Part shown: positions 49,825 to 55,534 of the stretch, one piece after another
Layout: each line of letters begins with the position of its first letter
How positions within the stretch are numbered: the stretch's first letter is position 1
Assembly (NCBI RefSeq): GCF_007997155.1
Contig: NZ_VORT01000002.1
Location: forward strand, 1-64,000
Length of the DNA stretch: 64,000 nucleotides
Origin: Aequorivita antarctica
GTDB lineage: Bacteria > Bacteroidota > Bacteroidia > Flavobacteriales > Flavobacteriaceae
Direction: 5' to 3'
Position numbers and translations under genes: made by a program
The notes under the pieces: model-generated
Databases searched by the model: none
The model's input: only the letters and a program-made list of their open reading frames with translations
What the model was told of the DNA's origin: nothing

Positions 49825-51084
49825 TTAATTTTTCTTTTCGGTAAACCTAATATTTTGAGGAAGTTCAACACTCAAGGTTTTATCAACAATCTTTTCTCTC
49901 ATCAATGCTTTTTTATTAAAATGACGAGATATATTTTGAGTCAATTCAGTGTAGTTGTCACCGTTTCCATTTTTGTGATAGAATATTTTAATTGAACGAC
50001 AATTTGAATTTTCGAAAATAGTATTGAGTAATTTACGATCTGATAAACCACAGGAATGTCCAAAAATGTATACTTGAAATTTTTTATCTGAATTAATCCA
50101 GTTAAGTAGTTGTCTATAATTTGAAGAATGTAAATATTAAAATGATTTAATGTTTGTTAGATATTGGTTATCGTTAGTTTTTTCAATAACACTATAATGG
50201 TCATCCATTTCATCTCCAAATCCAAAATTTATTTTATTTTCTTTAGAATTAATTTCACCATGAATATGAATTTGTGAAGCGGTTCCATAACTCTCAATCT
50301 GAGCGTTTATTAGCTTTATATATTTCTCTACGCTAGATGTGTAATTAAAGTTTAGAAAAAGATTATCAGGCAAATAGTCCAATTCTTTTTGTTGATATTC
50401 ATTTCTACTTGCCAACAATAATTCATCAAATTCTATTATCCCTTTCTTGTCTTCTGGAGGAAATTCATTAAAATATGGGTGATCCTTAATTTTTGAAAGA
50501 TGGCGCACATACAAGCGAAAATGTTCCAACAATTCGGAAGAATTTCTAGATAAATTATTAAAATCAAATTTTTCTAAAACCATCTGGTTTAAAAAAAATT
50601 CTAAAGTACTTTTTACATCGTCAAACTCACGATTTAACTTAGATATAGTCCCTTTGTAGTTATGTTTATTTTTTTCTGGATTTACAATACCAATTAAAAT
50701 TTCATAATATATATATTCGATATCTACCCATTTACTAACTGATTCTAAAGTAATAATTTTAAAAAAATCATTTTTAAATTCAAAAATTCTTGTTGCTGAG
50801 GAATTTGGTCCATATAGAACATTTCTAGTTGGTTCGAATTTCATACCATATTCTTTGGCATATCCAACCATATTCTTAACTAAGTCTTTATAATTCTTGA
50901 CGGGATAATCCTCATAAGTTAAAAAACCATTATAACTATCATTGACCATTACCATTTTTTTTATAAAATCATCATTATAATTTTTATGCAATGATTCCCA
51001 AAAATTATCCATATAATCTGCATAGGATGTAGGTAATCCATGTGCTAAATCAAAACCATTACCTACTATTACAAGTCTATTCAT
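49825..51084 (-). pseudogene. abiH: AbiH-family defence gene with in-frame stop
   Basis: From the ATG at 51084 the frame opens NRLVIVGNGFDLAHGLPTSYADYMDNFW, the AbiH signature, and runs to a TAA at 50137-50139 (after TNIKSF). The same frame continues without another stop for 103 codons to 49825, reading YLHSSNYRQLLNW, VYIFGHSCGLSDRKLLNTIFEN and ISRHFNKKALMREKI, which is the conserved AbiH C-terminus. One codon, probably AAA to TAA, therefore separates the two parts. The region is richer in A+T than its neighbours, consistent with acquisition by transfer. AbiH aborts phage infection by an unknown mechanism. This copy may be inactive or need readthrough. Confidence 0.85.
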
Positions 51085-51227
51085 TTCTAAAATGCTTTTT
51101 ATTTCTCTCAAATTTACCCAAAAACCTTACCTATTGAAATTTAACTTATGCGAACTTATAAACGTTTTCTTATGAAAATTCATAAAAAGCCAGTAACTTA
51201 AATATCTATCATTTTTGTAACTGTTCA

Positions 51228-52895
51228 CTATTTCCCATAAGCATCCGCATGCACATTTTTAACAGCCCGTCCACTTGGGTCGTTCATATTCTTAAAGCTT
51301 GCATCCCATTCCAACGCAATGGGGCTGCTACACGCCACAGAGGGTACTGAAGGCACGCTCAGCGCCGCGGTATCGCTTGGAAAGTGTTCAGCGAAAATGC
51401 TTCGGTAATAAAACTCTTCCTTGCTGCTTGGCGTTTGTAGCGGGAACTTGTATTTGGCGTTTGCCAACTGCTCGTCGGTTACTTTTTCGTTTACCATTTC
51501 TTTTAAAGTGTCTATCCAACTGTAGCCCACGCCATCACTAAATTGTTCCTTTTGGCGCCAAGCCACACTTGCAGGCAACATATCTTCAAAAGCTTTGCGG
51601 AGTATCCATTTTTCCATGCGTTCGCCGTTTATCATTTTGTCCTGTGGGTTGATGCGCATGGCTACGTCCATAAATTCTTTATCGAGGAAAGGCACGCGCC
51701 CTTCAATCCCCCAACTAGCCAGCGATTTGTTGGCGCGCAGGCAATCATACATATGCAGTTTGTCCAGTTTGCGCACGTTTTCCTTGTGGAATTCCTCTGC
51801 GTTTGGCGCTTTGTGGAAATAGAGATAACCTCCAAAAATTTCATCAGCGCCTTCGCCACTGAGTACCATTTTTATGCCCATCGCTTTGATGGCACGCGCC
51901 ATTAAATACATAGGTGTGCTAGCGCGGATGGTGGTAATATCATAGGTTTCCAGATGATAGATTACATCTTGAATGGCATCAATTCCTTCCTGGATTGTAA
52001 ATTTTATTTCGTGGTGTACGGTTTTTAAATGATCTGCCACTTTTTGTGCGGCGGCAAGATCAGGACTGCCTTCAAGTCCGATAGCAAAACTATGGAGCTG
52101 TGGATACCAAGCACCTTCAGTGTCTTCGCTTTCAATACGCTTTTCGGCATACTTCTTTGCGATGGCAGAAGTGATGCTGCTATCCAATCCGCCAGAAAGT
52201 AAAACGCCATAAGGTACATCGCTCATCAGTTGGCGGTGTACGGCGGCTTCCAAAGCTTTGCGAAGCTCGGCGATTTCGGTTGCATTGTTCTTTACGTTCT
52301 CATAGTCCATCCAATCACGGGAGTACCAGCGTTTCAGTTCGCCTTCGCGGCTGTCCAAGTAATGGCCTGGAGGGAAGAGCTCAATTTTTGTGCATATACC
52401 TTCCAAAGCTTTTAATTCTGAAGCAACATAAAAGGTTCCGTTTTGGTCCCAGCCTATATACAAAGGAATAATGCCCATATGGTCGCGGGCTATAAAGTAA
52501 TTATCGTTTTCAATATCATAAAGCGCAAAGCCGAAGATGCCGTTCATTTCATCTAAAAACCCAGCGCCTTTTTCTTTGTATAAAGGAAGGATTACCTCGC
52601 AGTCGCTCTTGGTTTGAAAGTTATAGTTTTTGAATTGTTTGCGAAGTGCCATATGATTATAGATTTCGCCATTGGCGGCCAAAACCAGATTGCCATCACT
52701 GCTGAAAAGCGGTTGCTTTCCTGAAGTGGGATCTACAATAGCAAGCCGCTCGTGCGCCATAATAGCTTTGTCGTTACTAAAAATTCCGCTCCAGTCTGGC
52801 CCACGGTGACGGATACATTTTGCCATTGACAATACTTGAAGTCTGAGTGCCTCTGCGGGCTCTTTAAGTTTGAATGCACATACAATTCCACACAT
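51228..52895 (-). CDS. asnB: Glutamine-hydrolysing asparagine synthase B
   Basis: A 555-residue two-domain enzyme converting aspartate, glutamine and ATP to asparagine. The N-terminal class II amidotransferase domain begins MCGIVCAFK with nucleophile Cys2, and RHRGPDWSGIF, HERLAIVD and LAANGEIYNH follow. The synthetase domain has the PP-loop GVLLSGGLDSSITSAIAKKYA and LSGEGADEIFGGYLYF. It is complete. Upstream on the same strand lie an Asn-rich leader peptide and a terminator, so the gene is probably controlled by transcription attenuation. The nearest upstream gene is the fused E1 dehydrogenase. Confidence 0.97.
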   Translation of the reverse strand: MCGIVCAFKLKEPAEALRLQVLSMAKCIRHRGPDWSGIFSNDKAIMAHERLAIVDPTSGKQPLFSSDGNLVLAANGEIYNHMALRKQFKNYNFQTKSDCEVILPLYKEKGAGFLDEMNGIFGFALYDIENDNYFIARDHMGIIPLYIGWDQNGTFYVASELKALEGICTKIELFPPGHYLDSREGELKRWYSRDWMDYENVKNNATEIAELRKALEAAVHRQLMSDVPYGVLLSGGLDSSITSAIAKKYAEKRIESEDTEGAWYPQLHSFAIGLEGSPDLAAAQKVADHLKTVHHEIKFTIQEGIDAIQDVIYHLETYDITTIRASTPMYLMARAIKAMGIKMVLSGEGADEIFGGYLYFHKAPNAEEFHKENVRKLDKLHMYDCLRANKSLASWGIEGRVPFLDKEFMDVAMRINPQDKMINGERMEKWILRKAFEDMLPASVAWRQKEQFSDGVGYSWIDTLKEMVNEKVTDEQLANAKYKFPLQTPSSKEEFYYRSIFAEHFPSDTAALSVPSVPSVACSSPIALEWDASFKNMNDPSGRAVKNVHADAYGK

Positions 52896-52936
52896 AATCT
52901 CTAATTTTTAAATGGTTCGTTTATAAGTAAAAAAAA

Positions 52937-52965
52937 AGCCCGTCAGGAAAAAAACCTGACGGGCT
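52937..52965 (-). terminator. Attenuator terminator before asnB
   Basis: A perfect 11-bp GC-rich stem AGCCCGTCAGG/CCTGACGGGCT with a 7-nt loop, followed on the minus strand by about nine T. It lies 21 bp after the leader-peptide stop and 41 bp before the asnB ATG, the position of an attenuator. It may also end transcription from the E1 gene. Confidence 0.85.
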
Positions 52966-52981
52966 GTATATCGCGACAAGT
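52954..52981 (-). promoter_or_regulatory. Candidate antiterminator hairpin
   Basis: On the minus strand ACTTGTCG (52981-52974) can pair with CGTCAGGT (52961-52954): seven pairs, one of them G-U, with a U-U mismatch and a 12-nt loop. This structure would use up the 5' arm of the terminator at 52955-52965, so the two are mutually exclusive. It starts 5 bases after the leader stop, where a ribosome waiting at the stop codon would cover it. Confidence 0.5.
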
Positions 52982-52986
52982 TTTTG

Positions 52987-53034
52987 TTACGGCAGCACGT
53001 TATTATTATTTGTATTTAGGCTGAAATGTAACAT
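52987..53034 (-). CDS. Asn-rich leader peptide of asnB
   Basis: A 15-codon frame, ATG at 53034 to TAA at 52987, encodes MLHFSLNTNNNNVLP. Five of 15 residues are Asn, four of them consecutive (three AAT, one AAC), and the product limited by AsnB is asparagine. The frame sits between the E1 gene and the attenuator terminator, on the asnB strand. A TACTTTAG sequence about 30 bp upstream (minus strand, 53071-53064) is one mismatch from the TAnnTTTG -7 box. Chance occurrence of four Asn codons is possible in AT-rich DNA, but the combination with the terminator and competing hairpin is persuasive. Confidence 0.7.
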   Translation of the reverse strand: MLHFSLNTNNNNVLP

Positions 53035-53119
53035 AAACTCGTTTTTATTTATTTAATGAGTTACTAAAGTAATATAAATTTTTAAACTAAAAAAAATAAA
53101 ATTATTCTTAAAGCTATGC

Positions 53120-55534
53120 TTAACGAAGCTTTGGAAATTCTGAGGGATTTACCTCGTGCATAATTTCATAAACCTTTTCATAAACATCTTCCACAGAAGG
53201 TTTGCTGAAATAATCGCCATCCGTTCCATAAGCGGGACGGTGATCTTTAGCGGCAAGCGTTTGTGGTTTGCTGTCTAAATGTTTGTATCCACCTTGAACA
53301 TCTAAAATGTTTTGAAGTATATAAGCTGAAGCCCCACCAGACACGTCTTCGTCAATAACGAGTAAACGGTTAGTTTTGGCTACGCTTTTTACCATATCGT
53401 GATTAAGATCTAAAGGAAGCAAAGATTGCACGTCAATAATTTCGACATCTATTCCTGCTTGTTGCAGCTCTTTTGCGGCTTCTTCTACAATTCGCAATGT
53501 ACTTCCGTAAGAAACCAAAGTAATATCTGTTCCTTCTTTAATGGTTTCAACAACACCAATTGGGGTTTTAAGTTCGCCGAGGTTGTTCGGCATTTTTTCC
53601 TTTAAACGGTAGCCGTTCAAACATTCAATAACCAATGCAGGTTCGTCAGTTTCAAGCAAAGTGTTGTAAAAACCTGCAGCTTTGGTCATATTTCGCGGCA
53701 CAAGAATATACATTCCGCGTAGTAAGTGGATTAAACCTCCCATTTGCGAACCACTGTGCCAAATTCCTTCTAGTCTGTGACCACGGGTTCTAACAATCAA
53801 TGGTGCTTTTTGGGTGCCATTTGTGCGGTAGCGCGTGGTTACCAAATCGTCACTCATTATCTGGAGGCAATACAATATATAATCTAAGTATTGAATTTCA
53901 GCAATAGGGCGCAGTCCGCGTAATGCCATCCCAATTCCCTGACCGAGAATTGTAGCTTCACGAATTCCAACATCGGCAACTCTTAGTTTGCCGTATTTTT
54001 CTTGCATGCCTTCCAAACCTTGGTTTACGTCGCCAATCTCGCCACTGTCTTCCCCAAAAATTAATACTTCGGGATGTTTTGTGAAAATAGCATCAAAGTT
54101 GTCACGAATAATTAAACGTCCATCTACTTCTTCTGCATCTTTAGCATAGGAGGGAAGTACCTCTTTTATGGTTTTTCCGTTCTCTTTTGCTTCACTATAA
54201 AGGTGCGCGCTGTATTTGGGTTGAATTATTTCGAAATAATTTTCAATCCAATCCTGAAGCTGTTTCTTTTCTGAAGAATCTTCGCCCACCACATAGCGCA
54301 GCGCTTTTCTGGTTGAGGCGATAATATCTTTACGAAGTGGTTCTTTTTCAGAAGCCAATTCGTTTTTTATTTTTTCAATGAAATTTTTGTTTGCGCTGTT
54401 CTCAGCTAAATTGCCAAGCAATAAAATGGCTTCCTCTTGCTCATTTTTCTGAGGAGCTAGAAAAGCCGCCCAGGCCGCTTTTTTACCATCGCGAACTTTT
54501 TTCTTTATATCGTTTTCAATTTCTACGAGGGTTTCTTCCGTGGCAATATCGCTACTAATCATCCACTCGCGCATTTTTACGTTACAGTCGTATTTTGCTT
54601 CCCATTCCAAACGTTCCTTGCTTTTGTAGCGTTCGTGAGAGCCGCTAGTACTGTGGCCTTGTGGTTGGGTTAACTGTTGCACGTGAATTAAAACGGGAAC
54701 GTGGTCTTCTCTTGCAATTTTTGAAGCACGGTTGTAAACCTCGATCAATTCGGGGTAATCCCAACCTTTTACACGGATTATTTCGTAACCATCTTCTTCT
54801 TCATTGCGTTGAAACCCTTTTAATACTTCAGAAATGTTTTCTTTGGTGGTTTGATATTTTGCGTGAACTGAAATTCCGTATTCATCGTCCCAAACACTCA
54901 TTACCATTGGCACTTGCAAAACACCGGCGGCGTTTATGGTTTCCCAGAAAAGGCCTTCGCTGGTGCTGGCGTTTCCAATAGTTCCCCAAGCAACTTCGTT
55001 ACCATTGATGGAGAAATTGGTTTTGTTTTCAATTCCTTTTATGTTTCTAAAAATCTTTGAAGCCTGTGCCAAGCCCAGCAAACGTGGCATTTGCCCCGCA
55101 GTAGGTGAAATATCGGCACTGCTATTTTTTTGCTGTGTAAGGTTTTTCCAACTACCATCCTCGTTCAGACTGTGAGTGGCGAAGTGGCCTCCCATTTGTC
55201 TTCCCGCGCTCATTGGGTCTGCTTTTATGTCTGTATGTGCATAAAGCCCTGCAAAAAACTGTTCAATAGTCAGCTTTCCAATGGCCATCATAAAGGTTTG
55301 GTCCCTGTAGTACCCACTACGCCAGTCGCCATTTTTAAATGCTTTGGCCCAAGCCAGTTGTGGCACTTCTTTTCCGTCACCGAAAATTCCAAATTTTGCC
55401 TTACCGGTAAGCACTTCGCGACGGCCCAACAAACTACATTCACGGCTGGTTACTGCTATTTTATAATCGTTAATAACGGTTTCCTTAAAATCGTCAAAAG
55501 AAATCTCTCCGTTGGTTTTTGGGTTTGTCTGCAT
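53120..55534 (-). CDS. Fused alpha/beta E1 component of 2-oxoacid dehydrogenase
   Basis: An 804-residue ThDP-dependent E1 with alpha and beta subunits in one chain, as is usual in Flavobacteriia for branched-chain 2-oxoacid (2-oxoisovalerate) dehydrogenase. The alpha half (1-~420) has YYRDQTFMMAIG, AGRQMGGHFATHSL and NGNEVAWGTIGNASTSEGLFWETIN (ThDP/Mg motif). The beta half (~480-804) has FGEDSGEIGDVNQGLEGMQEKYG, IREATILGQGIGMALRGLRPIAEIQY and LLVIDEDVSGGASAYI. The ATG at 55534 is preferred over a TTG at 55558. It feeds odd/iso-branched acyl-CoA primers for iso-fatty acids. E2 and E3 are elsewhere. Confidence 0.92.
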   Translation of the reverse strand: MQTNPKTNGEISFDDFKETVINDYKIAVTSRECSLLGRREVLTGKAKFGIFGDGKEVPQLAWAKAFKNGDWRSGYYRDQTFMMAIGKLTIEQFFAGLYAHTDIKADPMSAGRQMGGHFATHSLNEDGSWKNLTQQKNSSADISPTAGQMPRLLGLAQASKIFRNIKGIENKTNFSINGNEVAWGTIGNASTSEGLFWETINAAGVLQVPMVMSVWDDEYGISVHAKYQTTKENISEVLKGFQRNEEEDGYEIIRVKGWDYPELIEVYNRASKIAREDHVPVLIHVQQLTQPQGHSTSGSHERYKSKERLEWEAKYDCNVKMREWMISSDIATEETLVEIENDIKKKVRDGKKAAWAAFLAPQKNEQEEAILLLGNLAENSANKNFIEKIKNELASEKEPLRKDIIASTRKALRYVVGEDSSEKKQLQDWIENYFEIIQPKYSAHLYSEAKENGKTIKEVLPSYAKDAEEVDGRLIIRDNFDAIFTKHPEVLIFGEDSGEIGDVNQGLEGMQEKYGKLRVADVGIREATILGQGIGMALRGLRPIAEIQYLDYILYCLQIMSDDLVTTRYRTNGTQKAPLIVRTRGHRLEGIWHSGSQMGGLIHLLRGMYILVPRNMTKAAGFYNTLLETDEPALVIECLNGYRLKEKMPNNLGELKTPIGVVETIKEGTDITLVSYGSTLRIVEEAAKELQQAGIDVEIIDVQSLLPLDLNHDMVKSVAKTNRLLVIDEDVSGGASAYILQNILDVQGGYKHLDSKPQTLAAKDHRPAYGTDGDYFSKPSVEDVYEKVYEIMHEVNPSEFPKLR

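Follow-up and report, generated by a model that had tools for sequence, protein, structure and literature searches.

A conserved RNA element directly upstream of asnB in Aequorivita antarctica very likely serves as a ribosome-mediated transcription attenuator for this gene: it would respond to charged tRNA-Asn and probably turns asnB on when asparagine is short. The element was found in a window of 64,000 nucleotides (the whole stretch of DNA that was analysed), and the same anatomy of leader, antiterminator arm and terminator stands before asnB in 48 loci, 41 of which remain distinct when compared over the stretch that runs from the leader start roughly to the terminator (seven duplicates were dropped). 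Sequence, conservation, covariation and geometry are the basis on which we infer a transcription start, translation of the leader, stalling, antitermination and a physiological response. The first-pass annotation of this DNA had seen the leader and the two hairpins and had read them as an attenuator. Its observation is confirmed here, and its interpretation is supported and extended. It had overlooked a short segment at the leader start, and with this segment added the element takes the predicted form of a complete 1:2 / 2:3 / 3:4 attenuator.

The locus and its leader peptide

The identity of the downstream gene is clear from NCBIfam NF006949 (926.7 bits, cut-off 499), and TIGR01536 also matches. 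The genome contains one full-length match to an AsnB-type synthase. A search for a second AsnB gave only a 34% stretch (E 3.8e-4), AsnA had no match, and asnB is the sole asparagine synthase found in this genome, in which a gene for AsnRS (asnS) is present. Upstream of the leader, an ORF of 812 aa for an E1 protein of the 2-oxoacid dehydrogenase type ends at 53120 on the minus strand. Just downstream of asnB (50137-51111, minus strand) lies a phage-defence type gene for an AbiH-family protein (Pfam PF14253, E 3.5e-18). As a further observation on this 99.94%-complete genome, ilvD had no match where 14 of 14 controls matched, and the organism is perhaps auxotrophic for branched-chain amino acids. 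A known RNA family was rejected as an identity for the element, as Rfam gives no match of any family at gathering score within the window; at E values up to 1 only sub-gathering matches were found, one in locus L004 and two in L152, with none in L110.

Table 1. Features of the asnB element and its surroundings in the window
Feature	Position	Strand	Remarks
Possible -7 promoter box TACTTTAG	53064..53071	-	5 of 6 fixed bases of TANNTTTG
Segment 1 (protector) ACGAGTTT	53035..53042	-	directly before leader start codon; potential partner of segment 2
Leader ORF MLHFSLNTNNNNVLP + TAA	52987..53034	-	ATG at 53034; Asn codons 7, 9-12
Segment 2, antiterminator 5' arm AAAAACTTGTCG	52974..52985	-	onset 2 nt past leader stop
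Terminator 5' arm AGCCCGTCAGG	52955..52965	-	terminator scan, fold, alignment
Segment 3 in antiterminator form CGTCAGGTTTTT (inner terminator 5' arm and loop Ts)	52950..52961	-	fold without 3' arm; 90.0% of 448 cells pair, 41 sequences
Segment 4, terminator 3' arm CCTGACGGGCT	52937..52947	-	98.8% of 409 cells pair; both-side changes in 6 of 10 pairs
T tract of terminator (T9)	52929..52937	-	first T is the last stem base (paired)
asnB, asparagine synthase B (glutamine-hydrolysing), presumed regulated gene	51228..52895	-	ATG at 52895; NF006949

The leader had been described as a four-Asn peptide. Its 48-bp frame with a stop is confirmed, but four is the number in the uninterrupted run only, and the 15 codons include five Asn codons in total. 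The earlier proposal had been made to depend on conservation of the Asn run and the start codon, and when this was examined in the element-bearing loci, all 41 distinct ones were found to keep an in-frame start (ATG in 40, GTG in L119) and 3-10 Asn codons in a frame of 11-19 codons. The length and the non-Asn codons vary while the Asn codons are kept, and Asn accounts for 274 of the 585 codons after the start. Because both AAT and AAC are used in 35 of the 41 leaders, it is the amino acid, not a DNA repeat, that appears to be maintained. A pattern of four Asn codons, 9 nt, a stop and the antiterminator arm has a single match in the 3.84-Mb genome, the asnB leader itself; the same pattern read backwards has none.

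The -7 promoter consensus of the Bacteroidota type is TANNTTTG, and its best match within the 47 nt searched upstream of the leader is TACTTTAG, at -37 in the window. In 30 of the 41 loci a box of this type begins 31-39 nt upstream of the leader start, a regularity of weak statistical weight: the mean score, 4.85 against 4.56, lies above all 200 base shuffles, yet the difference is small. With a promoter-like box ahead of the leader, its transcription may not depend on read-through from the E1 gene.

Competing hairpins and the position of the ribosome

The terminator stem (52965-52955 with 52947-52937) has 11 pairs and ranks first among 15 terminator-like sites between 48000 and 58000. The perfect 11-bp terminator with a T9 tail annotated before asnB (minus strand, 52965-52937) is thus verified. 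The antiterminator, given earlier as 52981-52974 with 52961-52954, was correctly paired (a single T-T mismatch and a single G-T pair included) but too short. It extends to A52985-T52950 and comprises 11 pairs; nascent RNA without the terminator 3' arm folds AAAAACTTG-T-CG against CG-T-CAGGTTTTT. Because the antiterminator shares the terminator 5' arm, the two hairpins are mutually exclusive. The RNA from leader to terminator folds with z = -5.57, and none of 200 shuffles was equally stable.

Compensatory changes, on which the earlier proposal had also relied, are present in both hairpins, strongly in the terminator and modestly in the antiterminator. In the 41-row alignment, 47 terminator cells are changed on both sides, as against 11.8 in shuffles. 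The antiterminator has two such pairs and 16 cells, as against 5.9: columns 9/46 change from A-U to G-C in 12 sequences, and columns 19/36 from G-C to A-U in four. When the antiterminator partners are slid by 1-3 columns, only 25-62% of cells pair, compared with 90.0% in the true register; an earlier alignment of 13 rows gave 99.2% paired for the terminator and 94.3% for the antiterminator. The covariation support for the antiterminator is modest because three of its pairs are invariant and hence unable to covary, because 18 of the 41 sequences break its outer pair 18/37 and 17 break 19/36, and because 348 of 500 shuffles reach its number of pairs changed on both sides (351 of 500 for pair types). 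On average the terminator reaches -19.1 kcal/mol and the antiterminator -7.9 kcal/mol, and this gap of about 11 kcal/mol, which counts against the attenuator reading, implies that switching must be decided in time (kinetically), not at equilibrium.

The spacing between the Asn run and these hairpins is nearly fixed. An antiterminator arm with CTTG follows the stop in all 41 loci, at a distance of 6 nt in 38, 8 nt in one and 9 nt in two. If the single Asn of a GNP/GNT tail (five leaders) is set aside, 37 of the 41 leaders place the last Asn of the run three codons before the stop, and 36 combine this with the distance of 6 nt. L006 and L127 have two codons from Asn to stop and 9 nt from stop to CTTG, so that Asn and CTTG are again 18 nt apart, and the exceptions are L135 and L136 (five codons and 6 nt) and L014 (three codons and 8 nt). 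The tail itself, which puts an extra Asn at the last-but-one codon in five of the 41 leaders, counts against the attenuator reading, as a stall there would come near segment 2.

A ribosome covers about 15 nt upstream of its P site and 9 nt downstream of its A site. Masked partition functions were calculated with a footprint of this size for RNA reaching up to segment 3, with segment 4 absent, and their outcome is partly built in by the mask chosen. With the ribosome on the stop, the antiterminator probability was at least 0.5 in only 2 of 41 loci; L006 and L127 leave the antiterminator free in this state. With the ribosome on the first Asn codon, the run start or the run end, the counts were 39, 38 and 37 of 41. 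Without a ribosome, the model still favoured the antiterminator in 29 of 41. The corresponding values for the window are 0.01 (stop), 0.48 (first Asn, one of the two misses), 0.72 (run start), 0.62 (run end) and 0.06 (none). Both halves of the earlier proposal, that a terminating ribosome masks the antiterminator arm and that a ribosome at the Asn codons leaves it free, are thus reproduced in the footprint model.

The modelled cover of segment 2 by a ribosome on the stop is equally what would be expected of a TnaC-like arrest peptide, in which a C-terminal Pro or Thr slows or ligand-gates termination and the Asn run is only a spacer or an arrest motif. TnaC has Pro directly before its stop, and of the 41 leaders here, 28 have Pro as the last sense codon, 12 have Thr and one has Arg. 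However, beyond the last residue and a weak preference nearby the peptide is variable while its Asn content is kept, and no conserved arrest peptide sequence was found in the 41 leaders. Parking at the stop would favour termination, so that arrest would explain the off state and not induction. Moreover, slow release at a Pro-stop fits equally well into the attenuator model, where it may keep the ribosome over segment 2 and aid tight repression. Arrest as the basis of control is for these reasons very unlikely.

The attenuator reading is extended by segment 1. In the window, segment 1 and AAACTTGT form eight contiguous pairs, one of them G-U, and in most loci the segment is a copy of the terminator 5' arm placed at the leader start (CAAGTTT or CAAGTNN; CGAGTTT in the window). 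A 1:2 helix of at least five contiguous pairs over CTTG occurs in 36 of 41 loci; shifted windows give 7, 10, 16 and 12 of 41. Three of the 36 (L013, L117, L128) have the helix 8-20 nt further upstream instead of at the start codon, and five loci are without a 5-pair helix at segment 1. The mean 1:2 duplex of -5.86 kcal/mol is reached by none of 200 shuffles (-3.01, sd 0.22), and windows further upstream give only -1.85 to -2.98 kcal/mol with segment 2. Segments 2 and 1 (in this order) have changed jointly in L110 (GAACTTG/CAGGTTC), L113 (AGCTTG/CAAGCT), L136 (CTTGTGC/GCACAAG) and L011 (TTGTCG/CGACAA). When segment 1 partners were swapped among loci, 209 of 20000 arrangements were equally good, a mild signal in which relatedness is ignored. 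In the partition function without a ribosome, the 1:2 probability is at least 0.5 in only 8 of 41 loci, the window reaching 0.94.

A general role of segment 1 as an initiation motif in leaders of this family was rejected, because the pairing is absent in the 25 His leaders described below: their start-site pairing is -3.17 observed as against -3.43 shuffled, and 79 of 100 shuffles are as low. The same comparison bears on a reading in which the leader reports tRNA-Asn supply or queuosine modification, or translation capacity via initiation at segment 1, and not asparagine. The tRNA that reads Asn codons is of the queuosine type, and with segment 1 at the initiation site leader initiation itself could gate the switch. 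But the His codons of the other leaders belong to a queuosine-type tRNA as well and come without start-site pairing, and the gene behind the element makes asparagine in 48 of 48 loci, which renders a sensor of this kind most improbable.

Occurrence in relatives

The AsnB sample consisted of the best 80 loci fetched out of at least 592 candidate stretches. Of these, 79 were usable; L033, with 7 nt of upstream sequence, was left out of the presence count and the tree, and L044, with only 174 nt, was counted as leaderless. An Asn-rich leader with a terminator within 300 nt was found in 14 loci, among them Aequorivita aurantiaca (AsnB 95% identical) and, by record name, Marixanthomonas, Luteirhabdus, Thermobacterium, Patiriisocius, Planktosalinus and Pukyongia. 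The expected conservation of the leader in relatives holds for all 41 distinct element-bearing loci, but the whole element is missing from 65 of the 79, which are more distant.

A covariance model of the stop-to-terminator stretch (R1; like alignment A2, it leaves out L006 and a duplicate locus, L008) scored 84.2 bits at asnB in the genome of A. antarctica, with the next match at 36.1 bits. No asnB N-terminus was found at 19 further R1 loci of this genome, where leaders were sought without reorienting minus-strand matches. On 299 genomes of the family, 50 matches were opened, of which 34 (own genome included) are linked to asnB and 16, at 35.6-52.2 bits, are not. The scans at the order and class levels covered sampled genomes under stricter filters and could detect R1-like sequences only. 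Among 395 order-level genomes (E <= 1e-4), there were 16 matches, three of them known asnB loci (the window, L131 and L155) and 13 without asnB. The 395 class-level genomes (E <= 1e-5) yielded a single further match, L203, which is located just past another gene and has neither an Asn leader nor asnB. In these sampled genomes no R1-like sequence linked to asnB was found outside the family. The possibility of one RNA frame shared with other amino acids was also considered and not borne out, the element standing before asnB only among the matches opened.

On the AsnB tree (113 rows), the leader/no-leader label requires one change, at a branch with support 85, and among the matches opened the element appears confined to one branch of Flavobacteriaceae AsnB. 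Because 33 of the 48 leader rows were picked for having the element, losses inside the branch would be missed on this tree. Two further observations concern single loci. L103 (genome G027, same genus code) has an attenuator near-identical to that of the window, whereas its asnB DNA is only 74.8% identical, compared with 87.5% for L104, which has the same genus code, and the tree places its AsnB among those of other genera. This may reflect an exchange of the gene behind a retained attenuator. In L003, L103 and L133, G+C-rich, partly palindromic stretches lie between an intact attenuator and asnB, and the leader stop is 127-179 nt from asnB, compared with 91 in the window.

That the element is an ordinary terminator of the E1 gene with a chance poly-Asn frame in A+T-rich DNA, and no regulation, is scarcely conceivable and was rejected: the terminator does begin 154 nt past the E1 stop codon, Asn is common (5.83% of residues) and 8 of the 65 leaderless loci show an ATG frame with at least three Asn (that of L017 overlapping a weak terminator-like hairpin), but frame, codon content, spacing and alternative pairing are kept in 41 distinct loci, the genome holds one match to the pattern, the stop-antiterminator motif occurs in none of the 65 leaderless loci, and the tree label splits at one branch.

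Proposed mechanism and known attenuators

In the proposed mechanism, transcription would start shortly before the leader. With enough asparagine, the ribosome would move past the Asn codons and reach the stop, and there it would cover the next 9-10 nt or so (CAAAAACTTG, segment 2); segment 3 would then pair with segment 4, forming the terminator, and asnB would be off. If the ribosome is released or none is loaded, segment 1 could hold segment 2 and termination would still be allowed. When charged tRNA-Asn is short, the ribosome would stall on the Asn run, which ends three codons before the stop, with its body over or beside segment 1 and its leading edge short of segment 2. In this state segment 2 would capture segment 3 as the antiterminator, and RNA polymerase would continue into asnB.

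A mechanism of this type is already known, and it is the Asn specificity and the placement of segment 1 that appear to be new. No description of an Asn or asnB leader was recognised in the literature searched by title and abstract opening, and an earlier prediction may exist in older surveys (Vitreschak, 2004; Lopatovskaya, 2010). The balance is about even on whether this is the first Asn-specific leader-peptide attenuator, one whose protector at the start codon is a copy of the terminator 5' arm, which reads leader initiation together with the speed of Asn decoding, and which senses a frequent amino acid with long runs as a possible remedy. In window frames of at least 250 codons (15,267 residues), the share of Asn is 5.83%, that of His 1.81% and that of Trp 1.10%. 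The relevant theory is that of Elf and colleagues, who state that a shortage is amplified by one over codon frequency (PMC1183508). An Asn attenuator should thus be less sensitive per codon, and the long Asn runs may compensate for this. If the attenuator reading is true, the list of amino acids sensed through leader peptides would gain asparagine, and this in bacteria with little-studied RNA regulation. The 41 distinct natural variants, with 3-10 Asn codons, shifted stops and compensated pairs, would then allow the theory of attenuator sensitivity to be tested for the effects of codon number and codon frequency.

The closest known system is the attenuator of the Escherichia coli trp operon (trpL), which likewise has tandem codons for the product amino acid, 1:2, 2:3 and 3:4 pairings, and a terminator before the first structural gene. 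The two differ in the codons read, Trp versus Asn, and in segment 1, which in trp lies over the control codons and in the asnB element at the leader start codon. With our own segment cuts, the trp 2:3 and 3:4 helices are about equal (-15.6 and -13.7 kcal/mol), whereas the asnB terminator is far stronger than its antiterminator. A similar stability of the trp terminator and antiterminator is also stated by Elf and colleagues (PMC1183508).

Another known way to the same end is the Asn-specific T-box of the Firmicutes, which, like the proposed asnB attenuator, reads tRNA charging and controls amino acid genes by termination. It binds uncharged tRNA directly and without a leader peptide, whereas the asnB element has one; a T-box riboswitch was rejected, the window containing no Rfam T-box match, and no Rfam match at all, at gathering score. 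If the attenuator reading is true, these bacteria would control by a leader peptide a kind of gene that has an Asn T-box in Firmicutes.

A third comparison comes from the Flavobacteriaceae themselves. In the genome of A. antarctica, a His leader MNRTILHHHHIIFHAHAR followed by a terminator precedes hisG (G000:C22, 351641-352183, minus strand, locus L152), and leaders with at least three His, often ending in QAR, QAS or QAN, were found in 25 of the 26 hisG loci read in the family; L179, L187, L193 and L199, in which the start pattern found no start, were left out of this sample, and 3 of 33 matches were given no locus. The His leaders resemble the asnB leader in their 15-19 codons, a regulatory run from around codon 6-7, a stop and an intrinsic terminator. 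They are unlike it in the amino acid, in the sequence of the element, which is not alike, and in having no complementarity between the start site and the 42 nt from the stop codon on (three windows). Their presence in 25 of 26 loci suggests that leader-peptide attenuation is probably routine in these bacteria, which makes the asnB element less surprising and more plausible.
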